This document shows positions 32,561-63,054 of a stretch of 64,000 nt of DNA, one piece after another (within the stretch, counting starts at the first letter, position 1; each line of letters opens with the position of its first letter). Made by a program: the position numbers and the translations under genes. Source of the stretch: Atopobium fossor DSM 15642 (GTDB taxonomy: Bacteria > Actinomycetota > Coriobacteriia > Coriobacteriales > Atopobiaceae). Under the pieces are notes generated by a model. The model did no database searches. It had not been told where the DNA came from and saw only the letters and a list, made by a program, of their open reading frames with translations. The stretch spans positions 779,124-843,123 of the forward strand of contig NZ_KI519553.1 in NCBI RefSeq assembly GCF_000483125.1, read 5' to 3'.

Positions 32561-32574
32561 CAGGTAAAATACTA

Positions 32575-34951: not shown

Positions 34952-35060
34952 AGCTGATTTCCTCCACTTCTGCCACATCGTCTTCGTCATGGATATCTTG
35001 CGTGCTCATAAGCTCTTGAAGCTTCTTATCGTCAAGCTCATCTTTTGTCATATCGTCCAT
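34944..35060 (-). CDS. Small acidic protein, unknown
   Basis: A 38-residue frame from ATG 35060, 2 bp after the DUF4406 stop, ending 8 bp inside the endolysin gene. It starts MDDMTKDELDDKKLQELMST and is very acidic. The tight overlaps on both sides suggest it is translated and couples its neighbours. No family is recognised. Confidence 0.55.
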   Translation of the reverse strand: MDDMTKDELDDKKLQELMSTQDIHDEDDVAEVEEISYE

Positions 35061-35062
35061 CT

Positions 35063-35344: not shown

Positions 35345-35347
35345 GGC

Positions 35348-35770: not shown

Positions 35771-35784
35771 TTTGTCTCCTTAAT

Positions 35785-35806
35785 AAAAAACAGCCTTTCG
35801 GCTGCC
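35785..35806 (-). terminator. Terminator between tail and lysis genes
   Basis: On the minus strand GCAGCC-GAAA-GGCTG is followed by TTTTTTATT. It separates the last tail gene from the holin. Confidence 0.75.
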
Positions 35807-35831
35807 TTACAAACCTAATATTTTGTCGTGT

Positions 35832-37292: not shown

Positions 37293-38359
37293 TACACAAC
37301 CTCCATTGTCAAAGCCTTAGTCCACTGTGCACAATTCAACTCGGCTGTGCGCACAAGTCGTTTTTCGCGTGCGCCATCCTTATAAATCCACTCAATCACA
37401 TCACCGGCAGCAATGGGGCACCACATAACCGTTGCTTGGCGCTCAAGGCCCAAATCACTGTCCTGTGTCGAGTATTGTTTTGCCAGCTGATAGGCTCGCT
37501 CTACGGTTTCTGGTGCCATATCAGATACTTCGTGTACTTTTGCTCTGGTATAGCCACGTTTTGCACTCGATGATGCATGGTTAGCAGCTGTATCATACGC
37601 ACCAATAATAGTCTGCTGATTGTTGCCATCACGTTTTGTATGGGTGACTACACTGCGGTTGAATGCTTCGCCTGTGGCATCCTCGCTTTTACGATTCGCT
37701 AAAAGCACCACAGAGTGCTCGTCACGCTCATCGACAATCCAGTTTGCTGCTCTTTGAGCTGGAGCTATATAGCTATCAAAAGTGAGCCTGCCATGGCCGT
37801 CCACGTCCAGACGAGCATGAGCGGTTTTAGCTGCATCAAACAAGAACTTGGCAAAAGACGCTTCTGATGGACTATACGCTATCGTTTGTCCGTACGCAGC
37901 ATCTCGAAAACCGGATAGTAACACATACGCGCGTCCACATTGCTCACATGCGGTTTTAATAGCCTTAGATACAGTGGTTCCTTGCCCCACCGTCCAAATG
38001 TTCCAAAACCTATCTTCTGAGATTGCCCAGATAGCCGAATGTAGCGTCAGAGTTGTAAGGCCTGTGTAATGATCAATCGTCTTATGAGAGACAACAAAAG
38101 TACCCAACTCTTCACGTGGCAGGGTGCCCACGTCCAAAGTCAAGCGTACCCAGGAGCCCTCCATCAGCTCAGACGCAATAGTAATCTCTGCACTTGTACG
38201 TGTGTCACTGCGATATCCATATGTGAGGCGTGTCTTAGATGGCTGTAGGCCATCTATTTCACGACGCACGTAGTCAAGATTGTGTGGGTCAACCTCCCAG
38301 GCACGCAGGGTAATAGTGGTGGAGGGACTACACCACAGCTCGGGTATCGTTTGTGCCAT
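37292..38359 (-). CDS. Phage tail protein, baseplate type (Gp37-like)
   Basis: About 355 residues from ATG 38359. The strand-rich protein has QTIPELWCSPSTTITLRAWE at the start, then RREIDGLQPSKTRLTYGYRS and a central FDAAKTAHARLDVDGHGRLT. Layout and position resemble Gp37/prophage tail-like proteins that join the distal tail to fibres. The longer open frame upstream lies within the lectin-bearing gene, whose stop TAA overlaps this ATG by one base. Confidence 0.65.
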   Translation of the reverse strand: MAQTIPELWCSPSTTITLRAWEVDPHNLDYVRREIDGLQPSKTRLTYGYRSDTRTSAEITIASELMEGSWVRLTLDVGTLPREELGTFVVSHKTIDHYTGLTTLTLHSAIWAISEDRFWNIWTVGQGTTVSKAIKTACEQCGRAYVLLSGFRDAAYGQTIAYSPSEASFAKFLFDAAKTAHARLDVDGHGRLTFDSYIAPAQRAANWIVDERDEHSVVLLANRKSEDATGEAFNRSVVTHTKRDGNNQQTIIGAYDTAANHASSSAKRGYTRAKVHEVSDMAPETVERAYQLAKQYSTQDSDLGLERQATVMWCPIAAGDVIEWIYKDGAREKRLVRTAELNCAQWTKALTMEVV

Positions 38360-40656
38360 TATCGACTCTCCTGATACTGTCGCACGCGCACAGCTCCATA
38401 AGAGCGCCATTGCGCAGGATGCTCCACAGCCACTACAGCAACTGGCAATACTTCTCCTCGCCAATTACGAAATGTCGCATGGCCAGCTTCCAGTAAGGCG
38501 TCAAGCTGCGCAATAGATCCACTAACCGGTACATCCTCAACATATGCACCTGTTACTGATACATCACGTTGACGGCCACCTACAAAACGATAGCTTCGAT
38601 ACTCACGACCTGTCGTAGCATACTCTGCATAGTCACGGGTAGTGCTATCCCCCATCTCAGCAGGAGCAGAAAGACCAAGATCAAGAATAGCGTGGCCACC
38701 GTCCCAGTCCCACACATACGAGTGGTCTGTAATGGCAGGCAAAACAATCTCGGTCACACCCCACGTACCATCTGCGCGACTAATAACAATGAGCGCACGC
38801 CCATCTTTATTAAGAGGCCCGTATGCGTCAAGCACTTGTGTATTGGCTGTCTGTGATACTGGCGTCATCTGCGCTGATGCAAAATCACCACGCGTCCAAG
38901 CAGAGAGCTTGTCAGATGCTGCAGAAGTTTTGACGTTAACCAAAACCGTTACATGATCGCTTTCAGAGGTTGTGCATACCGGATCTTTACGCGTACCAAT
39001 AGTAGTAGTAACTGCCGTTGCGACAGTATCTGTGCTGAGACCATCAGTCACAAGCTCAACGTCGGCAGTTATACTAGCACCTTGGCGAGGTGCATAATCG
39101 ATTTCAGACCATGGAACAAGAATTGTGCCGCTTTTACCATCTACACCCGTATTGGTAATAGCATGTAGCAAGAGTTCTTTGCCGTCACAGACAAGTGAGC
39201 GTACAGCTACGGTGCAGCCACCATGGCCCCAGTCGCTGGTGTAAGCAACGGTAATGCCATCTTTTGATATAACACATGGCTTGAGCTGTAAATTAGGCTT
39301 TGCAGATAGGCGAATAGTCTGTGAGCTTGCAGAGGCACCATGGGCATATAAACCCTTGTGCCCGTTGTAGGCATCGGCAAAACTGCGCACTTCAAGCTGT
39401 ATTTCTACGCTATCAATATCTGATGCTGATATCTCTGGTAGCTGTAGCTTTACTGTCGCTTTCTTATCAGTATCAGAGCTACTAAATACCATGTTGGCAT
39501 GGCCCGCTGCCCCAAATCCGTCATAGGAAGAGCTTGCGTCTGATACGCTTTTCCAAGGGCCAAAGCTGCCAAATGACTGCCCAGCGTGGCGCACACGATA
39601 CCTATAACGGCCGTTAAAAAGCTTGCCGGGACACACAAAGCACGGGTATGTGTCGGCGGCCAATATAGTACCCTCAGTCACTTTTTCGCCATGGACATAC
39701 AGACCAACACTGGCAGGTGTTGGCAGTTCTTGCACATACATCTCAGAAGGCATCAAGGCAAACAACTGTGCATCCGTATTGTTCATGGGGTACATCTGGA
39801 TAACCCCGCCAGCAACGGGATTGTTGCCTTGCACATCCATGCATAGTGTACCGCCCATATCAGTAGCATAATTGCGTACTTGATAGGTTGGCACCGTCAC
39901 GCCATTAATTTGAGCAGTGCCTTGTGGGACAAAAATCCATTGATTATCACGCCCACCTTCATGACCAATTGATCCATATTGCAAAACGCGCGCACCGTTT
40001 ACAGGATTGCCAGCGTTATCAACCGCAACATACTTCATAGAGTGGGCAAACATAAGCTTACAACGACCGTTACCCATATTCGTAAGCCACAAAACTTGGT
40101 TGTTGCCACCATGGCGGGGATATGTCTCTACAAACGCGCCATCGCTTAATGACGATGAATTTAAATCTACAGCATAATCCGGGTTAGTCTTCAAGCGAAG
40201 CTCATAGGTACCATCAGGAGCCGGGTCTTTTGCTTCAAACGTCCACATCTGTAAGGCAGTACCAAAAACGTGCGTGGCAAGTTGAATATTTCCGCTAAGA
40301 GATGTTGCAGCTAAGCATAAGGAAGCATCAGCTAAAGGACGAATTACATATTTATCACCAACCGACTCAATAACCCACTTCTGAGCTGATGTATTGTTCC
40401 AATCATATTGCCAGACATTAGTACCAGCTGCCATATTGGCATTGTGCACATCCAATGCTTTACCTGTAGCTACAAAGCTCAAGACAACAAAGGTATCGTA
40501 GTTGGTGACACGTACAAGCTGCGCGTCACCATAATTAGCTTTAAACAGACTTACATTGGTGCTGCTTTGATCCAATGCACCAGTTACATCTATAACATAC
40601 GATGCGTCGGCTGCACTATGAATAACATAAGTGCCATCTTTAATAGCCATAGCCAA
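38359..40656 (-). CDS. Tail protein with two ricin-type lectin domains
   Basis: A 765-residue protein. Residues about 5-130 form a ricin-type beta-trefoil (DGTYVIHSAADASYVIDVTG, QKWVIESVGDKYVIRPLADA); a second unit covers about 133-305 (DGTYELRLKTNPDYAVDLNS, NQWIFVPQG, TLCMDVQGNNPVAGG). The remaining 450 residues are strand-rich tail structure. Such lectins bind sugars, so this may be the host-surface adhesin. The start appears to be TTG at 40656, 8 bp behind GGAGG in the tape-measure gene; ATG 40650 is possible. Confidence 0.82.
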   Translation of the reverse strand: MAMAIKDGTYVIHSAADASYVIDVTGALDQSSTNVSLFKANYGDAQLVRVTNYDTFVVLSFVATGKALDVHNANMAAGTNVWQYDWNNTSAQKWVIESVGDKYVIRPLADASLCLAATSLSGNIQLATHVFGTALQMWTFEAKDPAPDGTYELRLKTNPDYAVDLNSSSLSDGAFVETYPRHGGNNQVLWLTNMGNGRCKLMFAHSMKYVAVDNAGNPVNGARVLQYGSIGHEGGRDNQWIFVPQGTAQINGVTVPTYQVRNYATDMGGTLCMDVQGNNPVAGGVIQMYPMNNTDAQLFALMPSEMYVQELPTPASVGLYVHGEKVTEGTILAADTYPCFVCPGKLFNGRYRYRVRHAGQSFGSFGPWKSVSDASSSYDGFGAAGHANMVFSSSDTDKKATVKLQLPEISASDIDSVEIQLEVRSFADAYNGHKGLYAHGASASSQTIRLSAKPNLQLKPCVISKDGITVAYTSDWGHGGCTVAVRSLVCDGKELLLHAITNTGVDGKSGTILVPWSEIDYAPRQGASITADVELVTDGLSTDTVATAVTTTIGTRKDPVCTTSESDHVTVLVNVKTSAASDKLSAWTRGDFASAQMTPVSQTANTQVLDAYGPLNKDGRALIVISRADGTWGVTEIVLPAITDHSYVWDWDGGHAILDLGLSAPAEMGDSTTRDYAEYATTGREYRSYRFVGGRQRDVSVTGAYVEDVPVSGSIAQLDALLEAGHATFRNWRGEVLPVAVVAVEHPAQWRSYGAVRVRQYQESR

Positions 40657-43600
40657 CGTTCATACCTCCCCTGCGATCAATAGCAGTTGCTAAAGCGCCA
40701 ATAGTCTGGTTGCCGTCAAGTGTTACTTGCATACCACTAAGCTGTTGTGCCAAAGCTGATGCAATCTCTTGTGCAGATGGACCGGTATAGCCAACATAGC
40801 CAAGCTGAGAAACAACGCCGCTGGCAATAAGATCTACAAATGGCTGTGAATAGCGCGTGTTAGTAAGAGGAACAATATTGCGGCCATCGTAATACTCAGC
40901 TCCGGCTTCACCAATAACGTCATAAGGCGTGATATAGGTAGGTGCAGTATAAATACCACCTTGGGCATGTAGACGAATGCCGCCTTGTGCGTGTGGAACG
41001 CTGCGTACCACATCAACGATGCGACTGCCGATACGGTTGAGCTTGGCAGAAATGCTGCTAATAGTGCTGCTCGCATTATCAAGAGCAGTAATGGTAAAAC
41101 TCTTGTTAGAGATAGACTTAGCATCTACATGGTCAATACCAGCTTCTGCTACCGAGATGGTCCCGTCATCGTTTACATCAAAGTGCTTTCCATTGATAGT
41201 TTGAGCGTCTAGGTCCCAGATATTGCCTTGGGCATCTGCAATTGTGCCGTCATCGCTTACCGTAAATGTCTTAGGGTCAAGACCAATCTGGTTAAGCTGT
41301 TTGAGACGCTGGATAAGCACGTCGGTGTTACCGCCAGCGCTTTTAGCCAACGCTGCAAAGTTTTGCTCTCCCATGGCCTGCAGTTGATCTACAGATACCC
41401 CAGCAGATACTGCAGCGCCAGCCAATTGCTCAAGAGAAAAGCCCGTATCGATTAAAGCAGCTGCAAACTGTTGGTTGTTGTTGACAAAGTCAAGCATAGC
41501 TTTACCAGCTTCAGTAGCAGCCACTTGAGCTGCCGTCATTTCATCAGCGTAAGCCTGTGTTTCTTTCTGTGCTGATTTCAAAGCTTCATTAGCTTTATTT
41601 AGGCTATCTCCATAGCCATTTGATGCAAGAGTGGCTTTTGCATATTCTTCGGCAGTTTTCCAATGTTCACGCACGTCTTTGTGCTCTTTGTAATACTTAA
41701 GCATCAGTGCGTATTGTTCGTTATAGGTCTTTTGCGCGTCAGACTGATTCTTCTTAAGCTTCATCTCATTCTTAAGAGCTTCACTATATAAGTCTTGCGC
41801 AGCGTTAATACGTGCTTCTTCTTGCTTTTTAGCAATGAGTTCATCTATGGCAGCAACGGTATTTCTAATCTCTCCTTGCTGGTCTTTATACTCACCGGTT
41901 AATACCTCAGCTGTACTAAAACTCGTTCCTAAAGCGTCATTTAAACCTCGTACCGCCCATTCAAGTTTGGCGGTATCCTCAGCAGTGGCAACACCTTGCC
42001 CACCCATGCTATCAATAACTGATTTGTATTCACCCAGCATCTTAATTGGCGTGGCGGCACTCTCTTTAATACCAGCAATTGCTTGGTTATGCTGCTTGAT
42101 AGCTTCTCTTAGCTCATCGGTACTCATCGCAGCGTCGTGTGCTTGTGCAGCATAATCACTTGCAGCGCGCGCACCAGGAGCAAGAGCAGCAGATATACCA
42201 TCAGCGGAGTTTGCCATCTGTGTCATCGCGTCATTAAATTCTTGCTGGCGCTTTACATCATCATAGATACCCTTGCCTAAAATAGCCAGTGCAGCTACCA
42301 CAACCATAACGCCACCAGTAGCAAGACCGCCGAGTGCAGGAGCAGCTACACCAGCTGCTTCTGCTACCTTACCAATGCCACCTGCTGCAGATACCGCAGG
42401 ATTGAGCACCGTGCCAAGCTTGCCCGCAAGGCCGCCCGTAGATGCCATAGCCAGCTGTGTGGCAGAATCTGTAGCGCTTAAAGCTGCGCCAAAGGTGCCC
42501 AATACATTGGCACCCTTAGAGATAACACCGGCGACATTGCCGGCCACACCCACCACTTGCCCTGCAATACTTAATGCCGGACCTGCTGCCGCAGTAAGAG
42601 CAAGCGTGTTGATAATCGCACTTTGCTCTTCTTTGCTCATAGAGCTAAAGGCTTTAGCTGCGTTTTCGATACCTGAGATAAGCGGTTGTGCTGCATCTAA
42701 AGCAGATAGAGCAGCGTCAGCTAAAGGACCGCCTACCTCAGTTGCAATGGCAACCAGCTTGTTTTTAATTGTTTCAAGCTTAGCTGCAATTGATTTATTG
42801 CGGTTGTCCACCTCAGCTTGAAGTGCGCTGTTTTCTTTCCAAGACTTATTGGAAAGGTCAATGGCTTGCGTAAGCAAGTCACTATTGCCAGCCAAACGAC
42901 GCATGAAGTCACTTTGGCGAAGCTCAGTAATGCCAAGGTCAGCAAGAGTTTTATTGAGGTCCCCGCCATTTTTCGATACATCAGACATACCTTGTATGAC
43001 ACGCTCGAACGTGCCTGTGACATCAGTTGACCAGGCATTTTTAAACTCGTCAACCGACATGTGGGCCAAAGATGCCCACTGCTGCAAAGTGCCGCTGTTT
43101 TGAGAGACGGCCAGAGAAATCTCGTTGAGCGTTTTAGAGAAGGCAGAGCCACCAGTTTGTGACTCAATGCCTAAAGATGCGGCCGCGGCAGCTACACCTA
43201 AAATATCGGCCTGAGACATGCCAGCTTGTGTGCCAGCAGATGCCATGCCCATAGCCATATCTGAGATCTTGCTTTCAGTAGTGGCCATGTGATTTCCTAG
43301 ACCGACAATGGCAGAGGCATATCTATCAGCATCTTTCTGTGCCATACGAGTGATATTTGCAAATTGGGCAAGATTGGTGGCCGCCGTTGACGCGTCCATA
43401 TCGGTTGCAATATCTAGACCTTCTACCGTCATAGCAAATGCCTGCAGCCTGTCATTCGACCAACCAAGCTGTGCGCCTAGCGCTTCCATATTCAAGATGG
43501 AATCAGCACTTACTGGCTGTGTCTTAGATAGCTCCAATGCACCATCTTTAAGCTTTTGATAGCCTTCTTCGGTCATATCCACCGTTTTACGCACACCAGT

Positions 43601-44134
43601 CAGCGCGGTATCAATGGTTTTCGCGCTCTTAATAGATGCAGTGGCAAATGCAACTAAGGGCACCGTTACACCCATAGTAAGCTTTGAGCCAACACCTTGT
43701 AGTGTGGTTGACATGGCAGCTGCTTTAGCAGCTACATTATCAAATACAGCAGCTGCCCTACCAAGTCCAGTGGTGGCTGTGGTAGCTGCTACTAGAGCTG
43801 CTTGGTCACGCTTAAGGTACGCTTCGGCCTTCGCAAGCTCCACACCAAGTTTTTGATAGGCTGCACTTGTCGTATCACCAGACTTAGCAAGCTCATCTTG
43901 TGCCTGACGCAGTGTTTTTACACGTTGTGTAGTTGCTTCTACTTTAGAGCGTGCAGCTTGCATAGCAGAGCTGAGCAAACCTACGTTACGTGGGTCAAAC
44001 TTCAGTGCATTTTGGACATTGCGCAGCTCACTTTGTGCTTTGCGAGAAGCAGAATTAATCTGTGAAAGTGCCGCTGTGAGCTTGGTAGAGTCACCTTCAA
44101 ACGAGACATACAGACCCTTATACTCGCTTGCCAC
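40640..44134 (-). CDS. Tail tape measure protein
   Basis: At 1,164 residues this is a typical tape measure protein. Coiled coil fills the N-terminal part (SQINSASRKAQSELRNVQNA), followed by the PhageMin_Tail region with TQPVSADSILNMEALGAQLG and GMSQADILGVAAAAASLGIE. Hydrophobic stretches occur at about 490-545 and 600-625. The C-terminus has GEAGAEYYDGRNIVPLTN, common in the family. Its length sets tail length. It directly follows the tail chaperone frames. Confidence 0.95.
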   Translation of the reverse strand: MASEYKGLYVSFEGDSTKLTAALSQINSASRKAQSELRNVQNALKFDPRNVGLLSSAMQAARSKVEATTQRVKTLRQAQDELAKSGDTTSAAYQKLGVELAKAEAYLKRDQAALVAATTATTGLGRAAAVFDNVAAKAAAMSTTLQGVGSKLTMGVTVPLVAFATASIKSAKTIDTALTGVRKTVDMTEEGYQKLKDGALELSKTQPVSADSILNMEALGAQLGWSNDRLQAFAMTVEGLDIATDMDASTAATNLAQFANITRMAQKDADRYASAIVGLGNHMATTESKISDMAMGMASAGTQAGMSQADILGVAAAAASLGIESQTGGSAFSKTLNEISLAVSQNSGTLQQWASLAHMSVDEFKNAWSTDVTGTFERVIQGMSDVSKNGGDLNKTLADLGITELRQSDFMRRLAGNSDLLTQAIDLSNKSWKENSALQAEVDNRNKSIAAKLETIKNKLVAIATEVGGPLADAALSALDAAQPLISGIENAAKAFSSMSKEEQSAIINTLALTAAAGPALSIAGQVVGVAGNVAGVISKGANVLGTFGAALSATDSATQLAMASTGGLAGKLGTVLNPAVSAAGGIGKVAEAAGVAAPALGGLATGGVMVVVAALAILGKGIYDDVKRQQEFNDAMTQMANSADGISAALAPGARAASDYAAQAHDAAMSTDELREAIKQHNQAIAGIKESAATPIKMLGEYKSVIDSMGGQGVATAEDTAKLEWAVRGLNDALGTSFSTAEVLTGEYKDQQGEIRNTVAAIDELIAKKQEEARINAAQDLYSEALKNEMKLKKNQSDAQKTYNEQYALMLKYYKEHKDVREHWKTAEEYAKATLASNGYGDSLNKANEALKSAQKETQAYADEMTAAQVAATEAGKAMLDFVNNNQQFAAALIDTGFSLEQLAGAAVSAGVSVDQLQAMGEQNFAALAKSAGGNTDVLIQRLKQLNQIGLDPKTFTVSDDGTIADAQGNIWDLDAQTINGKHFDVNDDGTISVAEAGIDHVDAKSISNKSFTITALDNASSTISSISAKLNRIGSRIVDVVRSVPHAQGGIRLHAQGGIYTAPTYITPYDVIGEAGAEYYDGRNIVPLTNTRYSQPFVDLIASGVVSQLGYVGYTGPSAQEIASALAQQLSGMQVTLDGNQTIGALATAIDRRGGMNVGYGY

Positions 44135-44138
44135 GCTG

Positions 44139-44823
44139 CTACCCCCTCAATGCTTGTAGAACTTGTTCACGTGAAGCCATCACAACGCCGCCTGTAATAC
44201 GGCGGTCTGCAGGAATTGACCACGCATTTCTAATTGATAGATAAATCTGTGTATCTATTGGACTTAAGCCGATGGCTTCTTCATACGAAAAACCAGCTGC
44301 AACCAACGTCAGCACTTTGGCGCGCGTCGGCCATGCAACTTCTTCATTAGTGGGAACGCTACTGCTGCTAGTCTGATTTTTGTCCTGCGTCGGATTTAAG
44401 AGAATCTTTGATAGACTTGGGGAGCCGAAAAAAGGTGCGCTCACCAAACTCACCAAAAATCGTATTGCACGCATATGCCGGTTCGTACATATTAGCTGGT
44501 GCATCTTCCATTTGGCTTTTGAATACAGACCATGACTTGCTTGTAGAGCCAGCAGCTGTTGCCATGGCCCAGATAGCGCGCAAAAGGCAAGGCATATCAT
44601 CCCAAGAGGGATACTGCTCGTCTTGTTGTAACAATGTATCGCGCTCGAGCAAAATATCTTTAATGAGCTTGCCCGTATATGGCTTAGTCATCGTGTCTAA
44701 AAATGTCTCCTCATACAAGGCAACAGCCTTATTAGTAGCAGCAATGTCTAGTGATTGTCCCGCAACTTCCACAGATGATACGTACAGCGGATCAATAGCG
44801 GGGCGAAGTGTGCGTTTTCCCAT
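44139..44823 (-). CDS. Long tail assembly chaperone (gpGT-like), by frameshift
   Basis: Two overlapping frames sit between the major tail protein and the tape measure, as in lambda G/GT. Reading frame 0 from ATG 44823 through ACC TTT TTT, then slipping +1 so Phe-tRNA re-pairs on TTC, continues as GGC TCC CCA to the stop at 44139. The product would have 132 plus 95 residues. The second frame has no start of its own in a suitable place. Known cases aid tape measure folding. A -2 slip would give the same frame. Confidence 0.65.
44368..44823 (-). CDS. Short tail assembly chaperone (gpG-like)
   Basis: The 151-residue frame-0 product starts at ATG 44823, 6 bp behind AAGGAG (MGKRTLRPAIDPLYVSSVEV). 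It is helical, with YEETFLDTMTKPYTGKLIKD, and ends shortly after the slip site. Position and size fit the short chaperone that coats the tape measure protein before the tail tube forms. Confidence 0.75.
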   Translation of the reverse strand: MGKRTLRPAIDPLYVSSVEVAGQSLDIAATNKAVALYEETFLDTMTKPYTGKLIKDILLERDTLLQQDEQYPSWDDMPCLLRAIWAMATAAGSTSKSWSVFKSQMEDAPANMYEPAYACNTIFGEFGERTFFRLPKSIKDSLKSDAGQKSD

Positions 44824-44919
44824 AAATATCTCCTTGTTTTTGGCTGTCAAAGAACAGGTACAATAACGAGCTTATTAGGCGCACACCGCAAAATGATGTG
44901 CGCCATGAAAGCCAGTTAC

Positions 44920-45489
44920 TTAATCAGCTTGGAAAGGTACCTTAGTAAATGCAGCATCGTATCCAGCATCGCCAGGCTCAAAGGTTGTACTTACGCGCGA
45001 CTTGCCATCACCACATTTGGTACTAACAGCAGTAAAGGTAGAGGTCTCAGCATCCTCATTAATAGAATCGGTATTTGTCTTAGCAGAATGTACAGGAGTA
45101 GTAGCTGTACATCCGTAGTACCACGTACGAATAGATCCTTGATCACCTGTGGTTTCAACACCAAACGCAAACTCCTTGGCACCGCCATTGCTTACTTCGG
45201 AAATACCACCAGTGGTCTCGGATTCGGCCATCTGACCACAACAAGCCTTGAGGAAGTCACGGCTAAACTTAGTCATTTGCACTTGAATTTCTTTCGAACC
45301 AACGCCACCGCGCTTATAGCGTGGTGCATCACCAGCATAAATCGTCTGGTCGTTGGAGCCACCATTAGAGATTGTGGCTTCCTCTGGCCACTCAAACTCA
45401 TGGGGAGCTTCGTATTTGCCATCTTGTGTCTTAAGTGCCCAAAACGCGCGAGCAAGACCAATGCGTACCTTATTTTCAGTTACTGACAT
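44920..45489 (-). CDS. Major tail tube protein
   Basis: A 189-residue protein beginning MSVTENKVRIGLARAFWALK, then EVATGSN-type strands and YKRGGVGSKEIQVQMTKFSR. The mid-size, strand-rich profile and place between the tail terminator and chaperone genes fit the tail tube protein. It has few Cys or hydrophobic helices, as expected for a tube building block. Confidence 0.8.
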   Translation of the reverse strand: MSVTENKVRIGLARAFWALKTQDGKYEAPHEFEWPEEATISNGGSNDQTIYAGDAPRYKRGGVGSKEIQVQMTKFSRDFLKACCGQMAESETTGGISEVSNGGAKEFAFGVETTGDQGSIRTWYYGCTATTPVHSAKTNTDSINEDAETSTFTAVSTKCGDGKSRVSTTFEPGDAGYDAAFTKVPFQAD

Positions 45490-45507
45490 GTATATATCCC
45501 ATCTCTT

Positions 45508-45843
45508 TTATCGACCGACAACAGTTAAGGTGTAGGTCATCTCAACTACGCCACCGCCTAGCGGGACGCACCTTCTTACATAAGTAAAGCCAGCACCAGA
45601 CAATGCTTTTTCTAGCTTTGATTCAAGCTGCATATCGCTACCACGCTCATAAAGCTCAACCGTATAGTGCGTAGCGGCAAAGACATTACTGTTGGCCGCC
45701 ATACGGTCAGAAGTAGCATTTGGCACCAGCAGGGCATACGGCAAAGGCGGAGGAGAAGAACCATCTGCCGTATCCCATGCAATACGTGCATACCTAATAC
45801 CACACGATTTAATCGCGCGACACAGCTCACGATAGCCAGGCAT
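45508..45843 (-). CDS. Probable tail terminator/completion protein
   Basis: The 111-residue protein starts at ATG 45843, 8 bp behind AAGGAG (MPGYRELCRAIKSCGIRYAR). It has the profile of HK97 gp10-neighbour proteins, with AATHYTVELYERGSDMQLES in the middle and a strand-rich end. Its place between the gp10-like and tube genes supports tail termination, but the similarity is weak. Confidence 0.6.
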   Translation of the reverse strand: MPGYRELCRAIKSCGIRYARIAWDTADGSSPPPLPYALLVPNATSDRMAANSNVFAATHYTVELYERGSDMQLESKLEKALSGAGFTYVRRCVPLGGGVVEMTYTLTVVGR

Positions 45844-45844
45844 G

Positions 45845-46231
45845 CTAGTCACTCCTTAGTTTTTCAGCACCAACTGCATATGCAGGCTCAATGTGTGGGT
45901 ATGCACGAACGCGTGTTCCCGTATCGCGTCCATGAATAAATTTCTCATGGCCTTTTTCAAGCAAGTGTGTAAGTCCTGGCTTTTTCTTGTTATGCACAAC
46001 AACTTTGATATGTCCGTCAACCTCTTCGGTTGTGGCTGACCAACCAGCAGCATACTTGCCTGTCATAGCAGGTGTGAGCGCGCCATTGCGCAACTCATCG
46101 GCAGTCGCACGCGCTGCCCTACGCACGTTTTTGCGCAGAGCATCTATATTTTGTTGTGCTGTATGTTCAACTTCTTGCATAAGCACATCAGCAAAGCCAT
46201 CAATGCTGATAGATACTCTACTGTCCGACAT
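45845..46231 (-). CDS. HK97 gp10-like head-tail protein
   Basis: A 128-residue protein with the family pattern: a helical start DVLMQEVEHTAQQNIDALRK, the turn TPAMTGKYAAGWS, then KKPGLTHLLEKGHEKFIHGR and PHIEPAYAVG. It belongs to the HK97_gp10 group used in the neck. ATG 46231 has GGAATTGGGG before it and overlaps the previous gene by 14 bp. It is followed by the terminator protein gene. Confidence 0.82.
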   Translation of the reverse strand: MSDSRVSISIDGFADVLMQEVEHTAQQNIDALRKNVRRAARATADELRNGALTPAMTGKYAAGWSATTEEVDGHIKVVVHNKKKPGLTHLLEKGHEKFIHGRDTGTRVRAYPHIEPAYAVGAEKLRSD

Positions 46232-46844
46232 CCCCAATTCCTTCCGCACATTCAAGAGTGGTCCACTCACCATCGCCAGTTACACGAGTAACACTGTGAC
46301 GCTTACCTCGCATCACAACTGCCCTCTCGCCTGCCCAATCATCAGCACGAATAGATATATGCAAGCTTGCTAATTGCCCAGCATCGGTACTATTACCGGA
46401 CCACTCAACCGAACGTACATACACAGACGTACGCTTTTCTGTGGCATGCGCGATGCCCAAATCGTCATATTCAGCCGATGTTGCAACAAGCTCGCAGGTA
46501 CCGACACTCTCAAAACGAGTAAGATAGAGCCACGCAAGCCTGCCATCTTCATCGGTCTTGGTGATGTCATACGCTTTTCCAGCAATGACTGCTGTATTGG
46601 CGACAGACAGATCTGGGGGACGACGGACACACACTTTAAGCGACAAAGAGGGTGCATCGCTGCCTAAAGCATCAATATCGACAGAGCGCACCTGAGACTT
46701 TCGATATGGTAGTAGACACAGCGTGCGCAGACCAGCTGCGCTAGTCCAGTTGACACCACGCGCACAGCGCGCAGCCGTAGGTTCACATAGCGCAAGCACA
46801 CCATCAATAGGTGCAAATACCTCACGCTTAGTCTTGAGCGCCAT
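46218..46844 (-). CDS. Probable head-closure/neck protein
   Basis: About 208 residues from ATG 46844 (MALKTKREVFAPIDGVLALC). It is strand-rich, with TEKRTSVYVRSVEWSGNSTD and a C-terminal VVMRGKRHSVTRV. I do not recognise the family. Its position between the connector and gp10-like genes points to a head-completion or stopper role. Starts and ends overlap both neighbours, showing a tight operon. Confidence 0.55.
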   Translation of the reverse strand: MALKTKREVFAPIDGVLALCEPTAARCARGVNWTSAAGLRTLCLLPYRKSQVRSVDIDALGSDAPSLSLKVCVRRPPDLSVANTAVIAGKAYDITKTDEDGRLAWLYLTRFESVGTCELVATSAEYDDLGIAHATEKRTSVYVRSVEWSGNSTDAGQLASLHISIRADDWAGERAVVMRGKRHSVTRVTGDGEWTTLECAEGIGDVGQ

Positions 46845-47148
46845 CGTTTGAGCCTTTCTTAGGCAAAGTGACAAGACTGCGACATGCACGAATATCTTCG
46901 GCGTAGTTTTTCCAGAAGTCATCAAGTGCATCACTAAACTCGTAAAGGCACGCGTTTAAAAATAAAGGCCACGCTTCCCCATCGTTGGATGAAAAAGCGT
47001 GGCTATTTGCATACCCCAATCGCTTAGCGAGCACAGGAGAAACTGAATCCACTACATCTTTTAGACGTTCGTCTGTCTCAGCTGCATCCCATGTGATATT
47101 CAGCTTTCGTCTGATGGCGGCCATGACCTCAGGTTTTATACCGGCCAT
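46828..47148 (-). CDS. Head-tail connector, gp6-like
   Basis: A 106-residue helical protein starting MAGIKPEVMAAIRRKLNITW, then DAAETDERLKDVVDSVSPVL and a helix LFLNACLYEFSDALDDFWKN. These helical features match the gp6-like connectors that extend the portal ring. GGAGGTAGTGC precedes the ATG. It comes right after the capsid gene, as is usual. Confidence 0.75.
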   Translation of the reverse strand: MAGIKPEVMAAIRRKLNITWDAAETDERLKDVVDSVSPVLAKRLGYANSHAFSSNDGEAWPLFLNACLYEFSDALDDFWKNYAEDIRACRSLVTLPKKGSNDGAQD

Positions 47149-47165
47149 GCACTACCTCCATTTGC

Positions 47166-48383
47166 TTAAGCAGACGTCTTAGTGTTGACAGTACCCTTCA
47201 CCGTAACATTGAGATAGGCGGGGTCGAGCTTAGAGATATCAAGAACAATGGCCGAAGTGTTATCAAAAGCACGCCCATAAGCATACATAACAGACTTGAA
47301 CGCGCGCTGATCCTCGATAAACTTCGCTTCATCGCTGTATTCAATACCACGGTTGCCACCTACGAACACATCGTATTCATCTGGCAAGAACAAGATGGCG
47401 GTACCATCAGTAAGTTCAGTGGTAGTAAATACCTCAGTGGGTACAGGGAACAGGTCATGGACATATTGACCAGTAGTGGGAAGTTGTACGGTAGTAGCAG
47501 GCATTACCTTAGTGAGATAGTCAGTAGTAGTGCAAACCAACGCTACGCCACCACTGCGAAAATCAATTGATTTATCCTTACCCTTCTCATCTTTTGCGAG
47601 CTGCGCGACAAGACCACCATAGGTAGCTGGTGTAAATTCAGTCACCTTAGTCTTGCTCTTCTCGGGATATCCAGTAGAGGTGCTATAAGAAACACCTTCA
47701 TGAATATCACGATTAAGACCTACAGGCTCGCCTTTTGCGCCCTTACCAGCAACAACGCCAGCTTCAAGGCCGCAGGCAATAGCTTCACCAAGTACGGTGC
47801 GGACGTAACCGTCCATCCACACAGGGCCAAGCTTGAGCATATCAATGGATACCAAAGCAAAAGCAGAAAGCTTACCCTGCTTAACATCGATAACTTCAAA
47901 TGCTGAGGTAATTTCTTTAGTAATGGCTTCGCCAACATTTCCCCAAGCAGCCAATTGTTTGGTGTGCTTGTTACGCAGCCATTCAGTGATAAAGCCAACA
48001 TTGACCATGTTCAGGCGAGCAAGCAAAGGATGCTTTGCCTGAATATCTTTAATAATCTCGTCAAAAATAGTCGAAGGCATCATCTTGTCAGGAACTGCCG
48101 AGAAATTGGCAAGCTCTTGACGAGGATTAGAGCTAGAAAGCGCATCAATGATGCGCTGGTAATACTTTGTCTCATCACTAGTAAGCTGACGAAAACCGCG
48201 CTGGGCCAAAACAGCAGCATCATTTGATGCAACCGCTTGATTGTACTGCTCGGTTACATCTTCCAAAATACCAGCACGTAAGGCATCAAACGCTCGTTCA
48301 AAGTCATTTTTATCTTCTGACTTCAAAGCCGCTGAAAACTGCTCGACAAGCTTTTTGGACGTGCCGTTAAGATTGATAGGCAT
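47166..48383 (-). CDS. Major capsid protein, HK97 fold
   Basis: The 405-residue protein has an N-terminal helical segment of about 100 residues that resembles the HK97 delta scaffold, then VPDKMMPSTIFDEIIKDIQA, the usual start of the mature fold. The conserved GLEAGVVAGKGAKGEPVGLN loop is present. It forms the head shell after the protease trims it. Gene order protease-capsid-connector fits HK97-type heads. Confidence 0.93.
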   Translation of the reverse strand: MPINLNGTSKKLVEQFSAALKSEDKNDFERAFDALRAGILEDVTEQYNQAVASNDAAVLAQRGFRQLTSDETKYYQRIIDALSSSNPRQELANFSAVPDKMMPSTIFDEIIKDIQAKHPLLARLNMVNVGFITEWLRNKHTKQLAAWGNVGEAITKEITSAFEVIDVKQGKLSAFALVSIDMLKLGPVWMDGYVRTVLGEAIACGLEAGVVAGKGAKGEPVGLNRDIHEGVSYSTSTGYPEKSKTKVTEFTPATYGGLVAQLAKDEKGKDKSIDFRSGGVALVCTTTDYLTKVMPATTVQLPTTGQYVHDLFPVPTEVFTTTELTDGTAILFLPDEYDVFVGGNRGIEYSDEAKFIEDQRAFKSVMYAYGRAFDNTSAIVLDISKLDPAYLNVTVKGTVNTKTSA

Positions 48384-48394
48384 ATTTATCTCCT

Positions 48395-49275
<881 letters not shown>

Positions 49276-49279
<4 letters not shown>

Positions 49280-51162
49280 TTTGTTTCACCTCCGCCCGCA
49301 TCCTCGTGATTTTTTGTTCTCTGGTATTCATCTGCCCAAGGCTTATTGATGCGGTCTTGGCCAGTAAATCCACGAATTTCATTGGGATTATCGATAGAGC
49401 TACCAACAAGCTTTTCGATCTTGTCGGCAACCTCAAATAAATCTACATGGCGTATGTGCGTTGTATCTACATGGACGCGCGCACCTGCTGCCCATTGAGA
49501 CTGGTTGTATGTCTTACGAGTAAGCTCAGTTTCCAGTGCACGCGCTACTGGATCTACAGCAAATGTAAGAAGTGAGCTTACCAATTCGGCAAAATTATTA
49601 GTGTTCCCGTACATCAGACTGGTAGGTATACGCATACATACCGCAGCCGTTTCAAACATATCTTTGCGAATAGCTGCCACAGCATCAGGCATAACAGGAT
49701 GGGCGTTGGCACCTTCCGACACTCGCTCCATCTTCTGCCCGCTAAAAAGTGGCATAACGGCCGGGCGAGAAGAAGAGATGAAGGATTTGAGATTGGTCTT
49801 GAGCCGTTGTTTATGCTCATCTTCCTGCTCTGGTGTGCCGTTGACTGGCTGAGCTAAGGTATAAATCCATTTCGGCGTTGCGTGGTCATGCATGGCCGCT
49901 ATAACCGCGTCTGCCAGCTGTTCATACTGCACATCAAGCTGGCGCATAAGAGAACCCCAGCCATCCTCACCGCCACCAACCGAAAAATAATAGACTGCGG
50001 AGCTTTTCAACACATCAGAAATAGTGCCGGCAGATCCTCTTAGCGCAATTGCGCCTACCATGTCGGTTGTCTTTGCATAGTCAATGCCAATAACGCAAGG
50101 CATTTTGCGTAAAGACGCAAGATCATAGCTGCGTGACGCAGCCATAAGGTTTTCCCAAGAAGTGACTGCAATATCGCTTCTGCCTTGTGGAATATTGAAA
50201 CGCTTAGTAGGCGTTGCTGGATGTCGTTGCGGATTGCGATTCCACGTACGATATTCATTGCGATACTCAAACAGTAGCGTCTCTGAGCGCGTAAGCCGAG
50301 GATTGGCTTTAGGCCACATAGCCTCATCGTGAATCTCGTCAAGAGAGTCAAGGTGACACATGAAGGGCAGCATACCGCCATCTTGCTCTTCGCCGCGCAA
50401 GATAGCACGCGCAAGTACTTTATCCTCGTCTAATGGTCCATCGCGCACATCACCGTCGGTAGTGGTCTTTAGCCTTCGAGGGTGGTCTTTCTTACCAAGT
50501 CCGCCCGTAAAGACTTCCATTGATGCTGCATCTTCGTAGGCGTGCTCTTCATCAAACCACACGCATCCGGAGCGCATGCCGTCTTTGCCACTGCTATTGC
50601 CGCTCCAATATTTGAAGCGGCTACCAGTTTCAAGGCTGCGCAGCTCGATTTTGTTCCAATCGAAACCTTGGGAAAATAAATCGCTCTTGCCCTCAAAGAT
50701 ACGCCACAGGTCGTCGTAGCCAATGCGTGACTGCTCTTCGACCGTAGCACAAACATCGACATCGTAGTCTTTTATTCCATTAGCAGGCGAAAGCATGCAA
50801 AACGTTGCAAATCCACCAAAGCCAGTTTTTCCCCAGCCACGACCGATATAGATAAACAAATCAGTCCAGCGCGGGAAAAAGCCTTCTCTAAAGGTGCAAA
50901 GCCACAACGCAATCATGAATTTCTCTTCAGGGGCGAGCCTGAAAGGAAAATACTTCTGATAGCTCATGTAGCGAGCTAAGCGATCTTTATCAACCCATAG
51001 CTTTTCGGTGGCAAATACATGGCGCACATATGCACACAACAGATGCATATCCTCACAGGCAACGATTTTGCCAGTTTCCACCATGCGCAGCCATTCAGTA
51101 ATCTCTGGAGCTGCAATGCGCTTGTGTGTTTGGTATCTGGCCCTCTTGCTTTTGACAACCAC
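49276..51162 (-). CDS. Chimera: large terminase N-part joined to portal C-part
   Basis: A 628-residue frame holding parts of two proteins. Residues 1-365 are large terminase: GRGWGKT at 107-113 (Walker A), CVWFDEEH at 200-207 (Walker B) and IGIDYAKTTD at 358-367, the first acidic residue of the nuclease domain. The remaining nuclease domain is missing. From about 385, MRIPTSLMYGNTNNFAELVS and FAVDPVARALETELTRKTYN are HK97-family portal C-terminal features, and the portal N-half is missing. The start is GTG 51162 overlapping the terS stop region. An in-frame deletion is the simplest cause. Confidence 0.85.
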
Positions 51163-51163
51163 A

Positions 51164-51520
51164 TTACAGATCCAATGATTCTGCTACCGCAGCTACTTCT
51201 GCTTTAGCGGCGCGCCTGCGCGACTTCACAGGGTCCATCCCAAGCTGTGCGCGTGACATTAAATCAAGTGCTTTCGCATTGCCTGCGTTGGCGGCCTGAA
51301 AAAGTGAGCGGCGAAGTTTTGCACGACCTTTTGCTGCGAAGCGTTCTTGAGTGTCGTCAAAGCAAAGACCGAAAGCATCCTTGCAAAGTGTATCCAAGGC
51401 TTTTTCGGCACAGCTAAGTACCGCAGCAACTTCAGTAGCATCGCTACCAGCTTCTAGCAGCTCAGCGACTTGTTTTTTATCTTCATCAGTCCATTTAACA
51501 CGCTTAGAAGACATAGCCAT
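51164..51520 (-). CDS. Terminase small subunit
   Basis: The 118-residue protein opens with a helix-turn-helix (VKWTDEDKKQVAELLEAGSD, ATEVAAVLSCAEKALDTLCK). KLRRSLFQAANAGNAKALDL corresponds to the oligomerisation helices seen in small terminases. It recognises phage DNA ends for packaging. It directly precedes the large terminase part with overlapping stop/start bases. Confidence 0.85.
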   Translation of the reverse strand: MAMSSKRVKWTDEDKKQVAELLEAGSDATEVAAVLSCAEKALDTLCKDAFGLCFDDTQERFAAKGRAKLRRSLFQAANAGNAKALDLMSRAQLGMDPVKSRRRAAKAEVAAVAESLDL

Positions 51521-51750: not shown

Positions 51751-52137
51751 TTACCATCTTTCAACCGTCAGTGGTGGTTTGCGCGTGCGCTGCGACTTAC
51801 CAAAGCGACCATGCGCAATATCATGGGCGCTGTGACTGAGCGGAACTAAATTGCGTATAACCTCACCATCTTTGACGGCAAACTCCGATAATGCCCAGCC
51901 TGGATAATCTTCCACATACATCACGTGATGAACCACGTTTGCCGGAACAAACAGTGATGGTGACTGCTCAAGTTCATATTGGCTCTCCCCGTGAAACTCA
52001 CGTAACACATGAGCGCGCAATTTAATCCATGCAGACAAGCAATAAAAATCATGATCGCTTTTCTTTTGCGAGCGGCGGTCCAATATCCACTGAGCCAGTG
52101 CATGGTTATACACTGGCTTTTGCGGCAAAATAATCAT
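51751..52137 (-). CDS. HNH-type endonuclease
   Basis: About 128 residues from ATG 52137. VPANVVHHVMYVEDYPGWAL carries the HH of the HNH motif, and LVPLSHSAHDIAHGRFG the Asn-less later part with His. The two Cys pairs of many relatives are lacking. In HK97-like phages such nucleases assist terminase in cutting at cos. A terminator ends the gene upstream, so this starts the packaging transcript. Confidence 0.8.
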   Translation of the reverse strand: MIILPQKPVYNHALAQWILDRRSQKKSDHDFYCLSAWIKLRAHVLREFHGESQYELEQSPSLFVPANVVHHVMYVEDYPGWALSEFAVKDGEVIRNLVPLSHSAHDIAHGRFGKSQRTRKPPLTVERW

Positions 52138-52167
52138 AATTATCCGAACAGGTATGTGCTTGCTAAA

Positions 52168-52202
52168 CAAAAAAGGCGCGGAGCATTTATGCCCTGCGCC
52201 TT
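52168..52202 (-). terminator. Terminator between early/middle and late genes
   Basis: On the minus strand AAGGCGC...GCGCCTT encloses GGGCAT/ATGCTC pairing and is followed by a T-run, just after the sigma-like regulator gene. Late expression may need its bypass. Confidence 0.85.
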
Positions 52203-56389: not shown

Positions 56390-56642
56390 TGGTTGTCCCT
56401 CCATCTTGGCAAATTCCTAAGGCTTCTTCTCGGTACATCTCAAGCCAACGGATATCACACTCGAACTGCTCTTTTATGACGTCAAGCCTTGTTCTCATGG
56501 TCATGATTTCTTTGCGGTTACTTGTCATTTCTTCTCCGCGCTCATCCCATGGTCTCCCGTATTCGTTGTCCCAGCTAGAATATGCGTCGCGTAGCTTTGA
56601 ATACATTTCTTCAGTTATCTCTATTAGGCTGTCACCAGTCAT
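56382..56642 (-). CDS. Helical phage protein, unknown
   Basis: The 86-residue protein from ATG 56642 (MTGDSLIEITEEMYSKLRDA) is mostly helical and charged, with RKEIMTMRTRLDVIKEQFEC in the middle, probably a short coiled coil. It overlaps DUF551 by 8 bp and the zinc-ribbon gene by 4 bp. I do not recognise it. Confidence 0.65.
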   Translation of the reverse strand: MTGDSLIEITEEMYSKLRDAYSSWDNEYGRPWDERGEEMTSNRKEIMTMRTRLDVIKEQFECDIRWLEMYREEALGICQDGGTTND

Positions 56643-56983
56643 TGCTGTACCACCCTTGCGCCACAGTTTGGACAATAATTAGGCTCGCACACATCACCGC
56701 ACCAGCCGCACGCGGAGCAGGCAAAGTCGTAGCCCTCGCCGTTGGTACCCTCCTCGCCTCCGAAGTCATTGCACGTAGGGTCTACCAGGTCGGCGAGCTT
56801 CTCGAGCGTCCTCTCGGCAAGCCTACGGTTGGCGGCTACGGTGAACGGGTTGCCTTCGCCCACGGTTGGCCCAACAACTCCAACCCAATGGCTTAGGTAC
56901 ATGGTGAAGTCATGCGTCCCGTTGGTTTCTCTGGTGCGTCTGCGCAATCTTTCCGCTACCTCACGTCGCTCATCGCTATTCAT
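56639..56983 (-). CDS. Zinc-ribbon protein, tandem paralogue 3
   Basis: About 114 residues. The N-terminal helix NSDERREVAERLRRRTRETN is followed by LEKLADLVDPTCND and a C-terminal zinc ribbon: ACSACGWCG then YCPNCGARVV. It shares the order helix, LADL-[VI]-DPTC, paired CxxC with its two neighbours. The third codon, ATG 56983, was used; a GTG two codons earlier is possible. The gene is visibly richer in G and C than its surroundings, especially over 56,690-56,830. Confidence 0.7.
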   Translation of the reverse strand: MNSDERREVAERLRRRTRETNGTHDFTMYLSHWVGVVGPTVGEGNPFTVAANRRLAERTLEKLADLVDPTCNDFGGEEGTNGEGYDFACSACGWCGDVCEPNYCPNCGARVVQQ

Positions 56984-57317
56984 CGTCACTCACCACCCTT
57001 GCGCCGCAGACAGGGCAGTAGCGATACAAAGGTTCAGATGGTTTGCCGTCAACAACAATTGCAAGAAAGCAACCACATTCTGAGCAAACAAGCTCATCAT
57101 CCATACCGTGGACATCGTCTACAACTGGCTTGCACGTCGGGTCTATCAGGTCTGCGAGGCGTGCCATCGCGTCTGTGTAGGTAGTCTCTGCTGGTAGCTG
57201 TGGCCTTATGCCGACGCACGAAAGGATGAGCGTATATGCTTCTTTCACATTCCGCGCAATCCCTCCATCCCTCAGCCTTGCCGCCACAGCGTTGCGCTCT
57301 TCGCTAGTCTGCGTCAT
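56976..57317 (-). CDS. Zinc-ribbon protein, tandem paralogue 2
   Basis: A 113-residue protein: SEERNAVAARLRDGGIARNV, then MARLADLIDPTCKPV and the ribbon LVCSECGCF with YCPVCGARVV. It aligns in order with both flanking genes, overlapping the next gene by 8 bp and the previous by 14 bp. The ribbon suggests nucleic acid or protein contact; function is unknown. Confidence 0.72.
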   Translation of the reverse strand: MTQTSEERNAVAARLRDGGIARNVKEAYTLILSCVGIRPQLPAETTYTDAMARLADLIDPTCKPVVDDVHGMDDELVCSECGCFLAIVVDGKPSEPLYRYCPVCGARVVSDDE

Positions 57318-57696
57318 CGCTGTTCACCACCCTCGCACCGCAGTTGGGGCAGTAATTTGGTGCGTTGAACAGGTTTCCGAGATTGTGGTAGGAGCCGCCG
57401 AACGGATACCCGCATTCGCTGCATCCGCCCATCACGTCGTTCAACGCTAAGCCTCCTGTGTAATACGGCGGGTTTCCTGCTGCGTCCATCGCCACCCGTT
57501 TGCACGTAGGGTCGATAAGCTCAGATAATGCAGCCATTACCTCGATAGGCTCGCCGTTTACATCGTCTAAGATGGTGAGCGCCAGAAACTCCAGTGGCGT
57601 ATACATCTGCTGTTCTGGTAGTATCTCAAAGCTAGATCCAATAGCAGCAAACCTATGTGCTACTGTTTGGCGAAACTGCGGTGTTGAGTAGATCAT
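57304..57696 (-). CDS. Zinc-ribbon protein, tandem paralogue 1
   Basis: The 130-residue protein from ATG 57696 (AAGGAGAATA before it) starts MIYSTPQFRQTVAHRFAAIG. The shared core follows: MAALSELIDPTCKRV, then GGCSECGYPFG and YCPNCGARVV. It is the first gene of this unit after a terminator. Compared with the other two copies it has a longer insertion before the ribbon. Confidence 0.72.
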   Translation of the reverse strand: MIYSTPQFRQTVAHRFAAIGSSFEILPEQQMYTPLEFLALTILDDVNGEPIEVMAALSELIDPTCKRVAMDAAGNPPYYTGGLALNDVMGGCSECGYPFGGSYHNLGNLFNAPNYCPNCGARVVNSDDAD

Positions 57697-57712
57697 TATT
57701 CTCCTTGTCAAT

Positions 57713-57927: not shown

Positions 57928-59118
57928 TTATTCACTTCCTTCTTGTCTTGCGTCGTCTGCTGCTTGTGCAAAAGCGGCTGCTGCTGCCGTATCACGTCCA
58001 GGCATCACATGTGCGTAAATGCGCAAGGTGGTAGCTTCATCGGCGTGTCCTAAGCGCTCTGAGAGCGTCTTGAGATCCACCCCATGAGCCAAACACCACG
58101 TGGCGTGAGTGTGTCGCAGGCCGTGGAAGGTAAAGCGAGACGGTAGGCGCAAACGCTTACAGATGCGCTTAAACGCACGTGAAACCTGTGTGGGGCGCAT
58201 ATAGCTACCGTCTAGGGTAAGTAGTGGTGTTGGGCGTATATCATCGTCTAAAAAGCCATTACGCAAGCTGATATAGCCATCCAAGACGCGCATATCGCTT
58301 TGTGTGACGGCAATGTTTCTGTGCTTGCGCCCTTTGGTGACGTCTCGTCGATAAGGCGTCTCATGGGTCTTCTCTATGACCGTGCCACCAACGTGAATGT
58401 ATCGCTGTGTGCGGCGTATGTCTTTTAAGCGCAACGCGCACACTTCCCCTACGCGCATACCGGTATGCAGCGCTATCCAGGCAGCTGTGGCATAGGTAGC
58501 TTCCCGTATTGTGGCTTCTGTAAGTTCTTGTGGTTGCATGAGCTTTTCGAGCTCGGATGCAATAGTAGGAAAATCCCACTCACTTAAAGACACAGCTTCA
58601 TGGCGCTCTGGTGATGGTTTGGCCACGTAAAACAGCGGATTAGTCTCGCATATACCAGCGTCCACAAAGTAGTTGTACGCCCCTCGTAAGAAATGGTGTA
58701 TGGCCAACACAGAATTTCGAGCAAGACCAGCTCCACCATCAGCTTTTGGCTTACGCAAGCTTGTCTCAAAGCGGTTTAAATCCATCACGGTAAGCTTTGC
58801 AGCTTGGGCGGTGCCCAAAAACCGCCTGACGTAGTTATCTGTAAAAAGCTTATAGCTTCTCACGGAATTTGGGCTTGCGCCATTGCGCTCTTTAAGCTCT
58901 ATGTAGTCGTGTAAAAGATCTACGAGCAGAGAGCTCTTGACCTTTCCATCAGCCGTAAGATGTTTAAGCCACACATCGGCAAGTGCCTGTGCTTGCTCAC
59001 GCGTAGAAGCGTTAGGAAAGCTGTGATACGGCTTTATCTGCTTACCATGTGCGTCCACGCCTAAATATGGACGTACATACCACACACCATCGGTGCCCTG
59101 CTTAACCTCGGCTTTCAT
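57928..59118 (-). CDS. int: Tyrosine-family site-specific integrase
   Basis: The 396-residue recombinase has an AP2-like N-terminal arm domain, a SAM-like core-binding domain at about 60-165, and a catalytic domain with Arg222 (TGMRVGEVCAL), His332-x-x-Arg335 (HGLRHTHATW), His358 (LGHADEATT) and Tyr368 (RIYAHV). It should insert the element at tRNA-Cys. ATG 59118 follows AAGG; a longer frame overlaps DUF3310 further. It lies far from the visible att site. Confidence 0.95.
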   Translation of the reverse strand: MKAEVKQGTDGVWYVRPYLGVDAHGKQIKPYHSFPNASTREQAQALADVWLKHLTADGKVKSSLLVDLLHDYIELKERNGASPNSVRSYKLFTDNYVRRFLGTAQAAKLTVMDLNRFETSLRKPKADGGAGLARNSVLAIHHFLRGAYNYFVDAGICETNPLFYVAKPSPERHEAVSLSEWDFPTIASELEKLMQPQELTEATIREATYATAAWIALHTGMRVGEVCALRLKDIRRTQRYIHVGGTVIEKTHETPYRRDVTKGRKHRNIAVTQSDMRVLDGYISLRNGFLDDDIRPTPLLTLDGSYMRPTQVSRAFKRICKRLRLPSRFTFHGLRHTHATWCLAHGVDLKTLSERLGHADEATTLRIYAHVMPGRDTAAAAAFAQAADDARQEGSE

Positions 59119-59389
59119 GGTCTGCCTTAGATGTGTAGTCCTCAATCAGATAGTCAAGGCATTGACGTGCCTTGAGAAGATCCTCAAGGCCGTTTTTTAA
59201 ATACCACCGCCAAAGGTACTTAAAGGCACATCCCCACCAGTAAGCCACCGTACCAGACAGGTTGTCTTTGATGGGTGCCATCATGGAGCGAAGTGCATCC
59301 ATGCACTCCACCTTTCCGTCTCCTGCGTAATGAATGGGGTGTGATACACGAGATGGCTCATGTATCTCCTTATCTACTGATTGATCCAT
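59102..59389 (-). CDS. DUF3310 protein
   Basis: A 95-residue protein with the DUF3310 core SHPIHYAGDGKVECMDALRS, then GTVAYWWGCAFKYLWRWYLK and DLLKARQCLDYLI. The family is sometimes called a nucleotide kinase but has no proven activity. AGGAG precedes the ATG. It overlaps the integrase start by 17 bp. Confidence 0.88.
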   Translation of the reverse strand: MDQSVDKEIHEPSRVSHPIHYAGDGKVECMDALRSMMAPIKDNLSGTVAYWWGCAFKYLWRWYLKNGLEDLLKARQCLDYLIEDYTSKADHESRG

Positions 59390-62386: not shown

Positions 62387-63025
62387 ATGAGCTTCCAAAA
62401 CACCGTTCGTGTAAACCGTGAAAAGCTCGGCTTAACACAAGATGAATTAGGAGCAAAGGTTGGTTTGACCGGTTCATCTGTCAGCCAGTGGGAAGCTGGG
62501 CGAGCAAAACCACGTATAGGCGTATTAAAACAACTTGCCGAATTATTCAATATGAGCACGTCTGAGCTGCTTGGAGAAGAATTACAGTACGCTAATAGAG
62601 CTATCCCCTTCCGTGGCACCTCCGCAATGGTGCCCATGCGCGTACTTGGCAAAACTCATGCAGGTGAGACAACAGAGCAGATAGAAGATATAAAGCTCGT
62701 AGAAGTCCCTGAAACCGTAGCGCGCAATCATCCAGACGCATTCATGTTGCAAGTTGAGGGCGATTGTATGAATCGTTCGTATCCAGATGGCTGTTTGGTC
62801 ATGGTAGATCCTCTCTTGCAGCCCTGGAACGGCTGTGCGGTCGTAGCAGAGCCTAGTGTAGGTGAATCAGTACTTAGGCGTTATATGCGTGGACAATCAT
62901 CCATGATGCTTGCAGCAGACAGCTTTAGCGCCTATGACGACATGGTGTTTAGCGGTGAGGATGAAGTGAAGCTTGTCGGTGTCGTTGTGTGGTATCAGGC
63001 GGCACAAGAAGAGTGCGAGAGGTAG
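62387..63025 (+). CDS. CI-like repressor with altered S24 catalytic residues
   Basis: A 212-residue protein with an XRE helix-turn-helix at about 7-62 (LGLTQDELGAKVGLTGSSVS) and an S24/LexA-type C-domain. In LexA, Ala84-Gly85 is cut by Ser119 and Lys156. Here Ala92-Gly93 is kept, but the residues at the same distances are Cys127 (VEGDCMNRS) and Arg164 (SVLRRYM). It should keep the prophage silent; self-cleavage after DNA damage may be lost or changed. Confidence 0.9.
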   Translation: MSFQNTVRVNREKLGLTQDELGAKVGLTGSSVSQWEAGRAKPRIGVLKQLAELFNMSTSELLGEELQYANRAIPFRGTSAMVPMRVLGKTHAGETTEQIEDIKLVEVPETVARNHPDAFMLQVEGDCMNRSYPDGCLVMVDPLLQPWNGCAVVAEPSVGESVLRRYMRGQSSMMLAADSFSAYDDMVFSGEDEVKLVGVVVWYQAAQEECER

Positions 63026-63054
63026 GGTTGGAATAATGGATGGAGAGGATAGAG

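Follow-up and report, generated by a model that had tools for sequence, protein, structure and literature searches.

The window analysed here is a 64,000-nt stretch of the Atopobium fossor DSM 15642 genome (contig NZ_KI519553.1), and coordinates below are positions in it unless another contig or locus is named. On its reverse strand lies a single open reading frame of 628 aa (GTG start, no internal stops) in which the N-terminal part of a large terminase subunit (TerL) is joined to the C-terminal part of a portal protein. The features of this frame and of the prophage around it are the following:

32552–32618, no strand assigned: attL, a 67-bp repeat (partner attR at 66430–66496, beyond the window)
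33980–40656, reverse: tail tip / receptor-binding genes, holin and CHAP endolysin (profile matches)
40640–47148, reverse: head-tail connector, neck, tail terminator, major tail protein and tape measure genes, full length (profile matches and comparison with Lancefieldella rimae)
47166–48383, reverse: major capsid protein, HK97 type, full length (PF05065, phrog_10; 56% to L. rimae)
48395–49279, reverse: ClpP-type head maturation protease (PF00574, phrog_94)
49276–51162, reverse: fused ORF, TerL N-part and portal C-part, 628 aa (ORF listing, Pfam and PHROGs)
49276–50040, reverse: portal part, residues 375–628 (a 387-aa portal from about residue 143 onwards)
50041–51162, reverse: TerL part, residues 1–374 (ATPase domain, first nuclease strand and catalytic Asp D361)
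50043–50054, no strand assigned: palindrome GCGCAATTGCGC, within TerL codons next to the join
51164–51520, reverse: probable small terminase subunit, full length (44% to the L. rimae terL-adjacent gene; weak families only, role assigned by position)
51751–52170, reverse: HNH endonuclease (phrog_144; 57% to L. rimae)
57928–59145, reverse: tyrosine integrase (phrog_1; 56% to L. rimae)
62387–63025, forward: CI-type repressor (HTH and peptidase S24 domain matches)

Pfam and PHROGs profile matches split the fusion cleanly in two, which bears out the terminase and portal identities proposed by an earlier, sequence-only reading of this DNA; the frame and the motifs that it named also lie where it had placed them. 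In the PHROGs profile search, phrog_9 (terminase large subunit) matches residues 15–373 (2.9e-63), while in Pfam the terminase nuclease profile PF20441 is covered at positions 9–109 of 286 only, and PF04860 (Phage_portal) matches residues 415–598 (2.8e-11) with profile positions 145–318 of 321. The fusion carries the ASCE ATPase motifs of an HK97-type TerL, namely Walker A (GRGWGKT, 107–113) and Walker B (CVWFDEEH, 200–207), as well as IGIDYAKTTD at 358–367 and YGNTNN at 518–523. A single-sequence fold of the whole chain reached a mean pLDDT of 34 and was uninformative.

The prophage of Lancefieldella rimae ATCC 49626 (NZ_ACFE01000002.1; loci L045, L007 and G023:C8) is like the A. fossor element in its collinear structural module and its lysogeny genes, with identities of 68% for TerL, 63% for portal, 56% for capsid and 52% for tape measure, but differs in having separate, full-length genes for TerL (560 aa) and portal (387 aa), which a 275-aa gene sets apart. 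G023, the genome that matches L. rimae, belongs to the same family as the studied genome and to another genus. The TerL part of the fusion aligns with residues 3–370 of the L. rimae TerL, which runs on to residue 560, and the portal part with portal residues 143–387. The other relatives examined (further IMG/VR contigs, the best 60 of 823 phage records and genomes of the same order) likewise keep TerL (~560 aa) apart from portal (~390 aa): where both genes are present, either the two stand in separate frames, or the two pieces lie ~0.9–1.2 kb further apart than in the fusion. In several relatives a gene of 264–275 aa is placed between terL and portal (L007:6705–7532, L005:6895–7689); its product (FVDKFKPKKTTDDCYTP...NPPF) appears methyltransferase-like by eye, and the L007 copy had no Pfam match.

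When the halves were searched by tblastn, TerL homology stopped at residue 374 and portal homology started at 375–376 in all close relatives, and protein alignments of TerL and of portal place the join likewise, between L374 and R375 (window 50041/50040). The portal-like sequence had been read as starting at about residue 385; its portal identity stands, although by alignment to relatives the start is slightly earlier. At the DNA level, the TerL side of the join reads ...GTA GGC GCA ATT GCG CT, compared with ...GTG GGA GCC GTT GCG CTC in L. rimae, and the portal side starts AGA GGA TCT, compared with GAG GGC TCA in the relative L010; the nearest relative with intact genes is only ~70% alike, and the deletion end-points are thus placed only to within a few bases. 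The palindrome GCGCAATTGCGC, which had been pointed out at the probable join, is indeed exact and abuts the join from the TerL side, but it is ordinary TerL coding sequence, encoding (G)AIA(L), homologous to GA[VI]AL of intact TerL, with no sign of having caused the deletion. Because there are 26 perfect palindromes of at least 12 bp in the 64-kb window (0.41 per kb), its position near the join is a modest coincidence, and we rejected it both as an inserted element and as the cause of the deletion.

In 14 relatives, the DNA between the two homologous points gives the missing length, which amounts to 959–1334 bp by 11 of the 14 contigs and to 1832–2308 bp by the three (L007, L005, L019) with an extra gene between terL and portal. 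This agrees with the in-frame deletion of about 1 kb or more that had been suggested; its length would be about 0.96–1.3 kb if the ancestor had no intervening gene and 1.8–2.3 kb if it had one.

The catalytic residues of HK97 TerL are D302, D388 and D471 (PMC9410871). By alignment to 6z6d (chain numbering 10 ahead), D302 and D388 equal D357 and D440 of the L. rimae TerL, while the counterpart of D471, beyond the pairwise alignment, is presumably the invariant D529, judging by its invariance and its spacing from a conserved Lys. Of these three aspartates the fusion retains only D361 (equal to D302), the counterparts of D388 and D471 (D440 and D529, invariant in relatives) being deleted, as expected from the sequence-only reading, in which the first acidic motif of the nuclease alone was recognised. 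Instead of the full ~390-aa HK97-type portal fold only about residues 143–387 are present, and the first ~142 residues, including the invariant NVSPN motif, are gone. Compared with the HK97 packaging genes (TerL 6z6d; portal 8fql/8cez), the fusion therefore shares the TerL ATPase motifs, the first nuclease Asp and the portal C-part, but lacks the portal N-part and two of the catalytic Asp, the second and the third, and the remainder is joined in one chain. The intact L. rimae portal, modelled with AlphaFold, also had HK97 portals as its best PDB matches (mean pLDDT 61, which speaks for the fold family only). Since fitting in HK97 put the TerL nuclease domains immediately beneath the portal (PMC10359639), the deletion removes most of the nuclease domain expected to face the portal, together with the N-terminal third of the portal.

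When the C-part of TerL and the N-part of portal from L. rimae served as queries, no match was obtained anywhere in the assembly (1.65 Mb, 4 contigs, 97.6% complete), other contigs included; such an empty result is weak without a positive control, but the same approach with P0001 recovered the TerL of a second prophage at 26% identity. This second prophage, unrelated to the first at the terminase, (G000:C1, ~221.9–256.9 kb; L053–L055) is complete-looking, with full-length TerL and portal (C1:238–241 kb), the only other ones in the genome.

A terminase-portal fusion as a known protein type was not found in the literature. The fusion was not seen in 7 loci from GTDB genomes or in 21 further IMG/VR contigs, nor in the best 60 of 823 phage records or the best 10 of 196 plasmid records, nor in the loci examined among 395 same-order genomes, of which 37 have a TerL match (many of them at TerL only). 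Independent phages with the same fusion, which the sequence-only reading had named as evidence against itself, thus did not appear among the phage, plasmid, IMG/VR, GTDB and same-order matches examined, and we rejected a natural fusion protein type. The exact join sequence occurs in one IMG/VR contig, 2523231056_000002, 100% identical over the ORF, which is almost surely the same genome as the studied assembly. Two other candidates were set aside: a frame of ~1009 aa in G064 (L031) looks not like a portal fusion but like a TerL with an apparent intein inside the Walker A motif (GRKNGK followed by ALSLDTEIPT...), and a tandem terL in G189 (L063) adjoins N-runs and looks like a misassembly.

The prophage itself is a 33.9-kb element whose att repeat copies are 95.5% identical, attR overlapping tRNA-Cys (3' half). 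Integrase, repressor, capsid, tail and lysis genes are all present within intact att sites, as in a complete prophage, but the intact terminase and portal of a complete inducible siphovirus prophage are not. The L. rimae prophage carries the head, connector, tail and tape-measure genes in collinear arrangement (43–58% identity) and also has genes that match the endolysin, integrase, antirepressor and repressor. The tail-tip genes differ; the A. fossor element has tail-fibre-like proteins as well as the holin and the CHAP endolysin. The impression that the other structural genes are intact was well founded, as the head, connector and tail set is full-length through the tape measure and matches the L. 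rimae genes. The start of the protease gene overlaps the stop of the fusion by 4 nt, and as this overlap is kept, downstream translation need not be disturbed.

From these comparisons, we consider it likely that one deletion produced a packaging-dead but otherwise fresh prophage. The ancestor would have been a complete HK97-type siphovirus prophage, in which a single deletion that began at TerL codon 375 and reached about codon 142 of the portal gene stayed in frame by a one-in-three chance. As two of the three nuclease aspartates and the N-terminal ~142 portal residues are gone, the hybrid protein should act neither as motor and nuclease nor as a portal ring. Packaging, to judge from the sequence, probably fails and infectious particles are probably no longer made, and the prophage would replicate with its host; the earlier claim that it is unable to package its own DNA is directly implied by the comparison with intact relatives. 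The deletion is probably recent relative to general decay, because the lysis, tail and lysogeny genes look intact.

The same sequence would be obtained if terL and portal were both intact in the strain and ~1–2 kb between them had been lost during assembly. As the fusion is known from one assembly only, it might be a misassembly, and the broken, duplicated terL beside N-runs in the related genome G189 indicates that such errors can arise in this region; we nevertheless hold this explanation to be rather unlikely, since the window contains no N, the join lies deep inside a 1.08-Mb contig, the sole repeat seen at the join is the 12-bp palindrome, too short for the usual repeat collapse, and the dropped sequence is absent from all other contigs. 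We infer that the deletion is biological and not made by the assembly. If so, the hybrid could still have been kept for a role, e.g., the dominant-negative poisoning of the packaging motor of superinfecting relatives: it would be expressed and block these motors, and the deletion would mark an adaptive step by which a prophage turns into a phage-defence element. Such a role, which we find very improbable both for the retained hybrid and for the adaptive step, would suit a 628-aa open frame with Walker A and B and the portal C-part intact and with the protease overlap preserved, but one third of deletions keep the frame by chance, so the open frame says little about function, and a lysogen normally keeps its structural genes silent. 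There is also no sign of selection on the hybrid, because no second occurrence turned up among the 395 same-order genomes and the matches examined from phages, plasmids and IMG/VR. For the same reasons (frame retention in one of three deletions, and a fusion carried by one sequence only) the suggestion of a domesticated element whose open frame had been preserved is not supported. The element might also be satellite-like and take its terminase and portal from the second prophage (C1 ~222–257 kb), where both are full length. We give this next to no credence: the TerL of that prophage is only 26% identical, a foreign portal and terminase would have to fit the terS, capsid and tail that the element still carries, and we saw no helper-hijacking gene; to our knowledge, satellites do not normally retain a broken terL-portal hybrid.

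Terminase and portal are preferentially lost from incomplete prophages (PMC7744054). Like the incomplete or cryptic prophages of that study, the A. fossor prophage has lost terminase and portal and kept its lysogeny genes, but it differs in that this is a single deletion with an in-frame fusion, while all else looks intact. The single-deletion reading most likely describes an ordinary defective prophage on a common route of prophage decay, and offers a clean snapshot of the first step in prophage inactivation, in which the packaging motor and the portal are hit and the rest looks intact; it fits the known preferential loss and opens no new question.

Some further features of the element were observed. 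The head maturation protease has a long Glu-Pro repeat (EPEPEP...) near its C-terminus (48451–48530), likely a linker, whose length may vary, and a 765-aa protein of the tail region (38359–40656) has an N-terminal ricin-type beta-trefoil lectin domain (PF14200, PF00652) and is perhaps receptor-binding. Two tyrosine integrases are present, one mid-element (57928–59145) and one beside attR (L052:5226–6377); the mid-element integrase recurs in the L. rimae prophage, which carries another one farther on. At 56639–57711, three small paralogous ORFs stand in tandem and end in YCPxCGARVV cysteine motifs; two genes of this kind occur in L. rimae. A two-gene candidate phage-defence locus (window 63040–64000 and on; L052:3040–5105) is situated between the repressor and the integrase on the attR side; in this locus, by PADLOC, one protein matches PDC-M30A/M41A and a radical-SAM protein weakly matches PDC-M30B/M41B.
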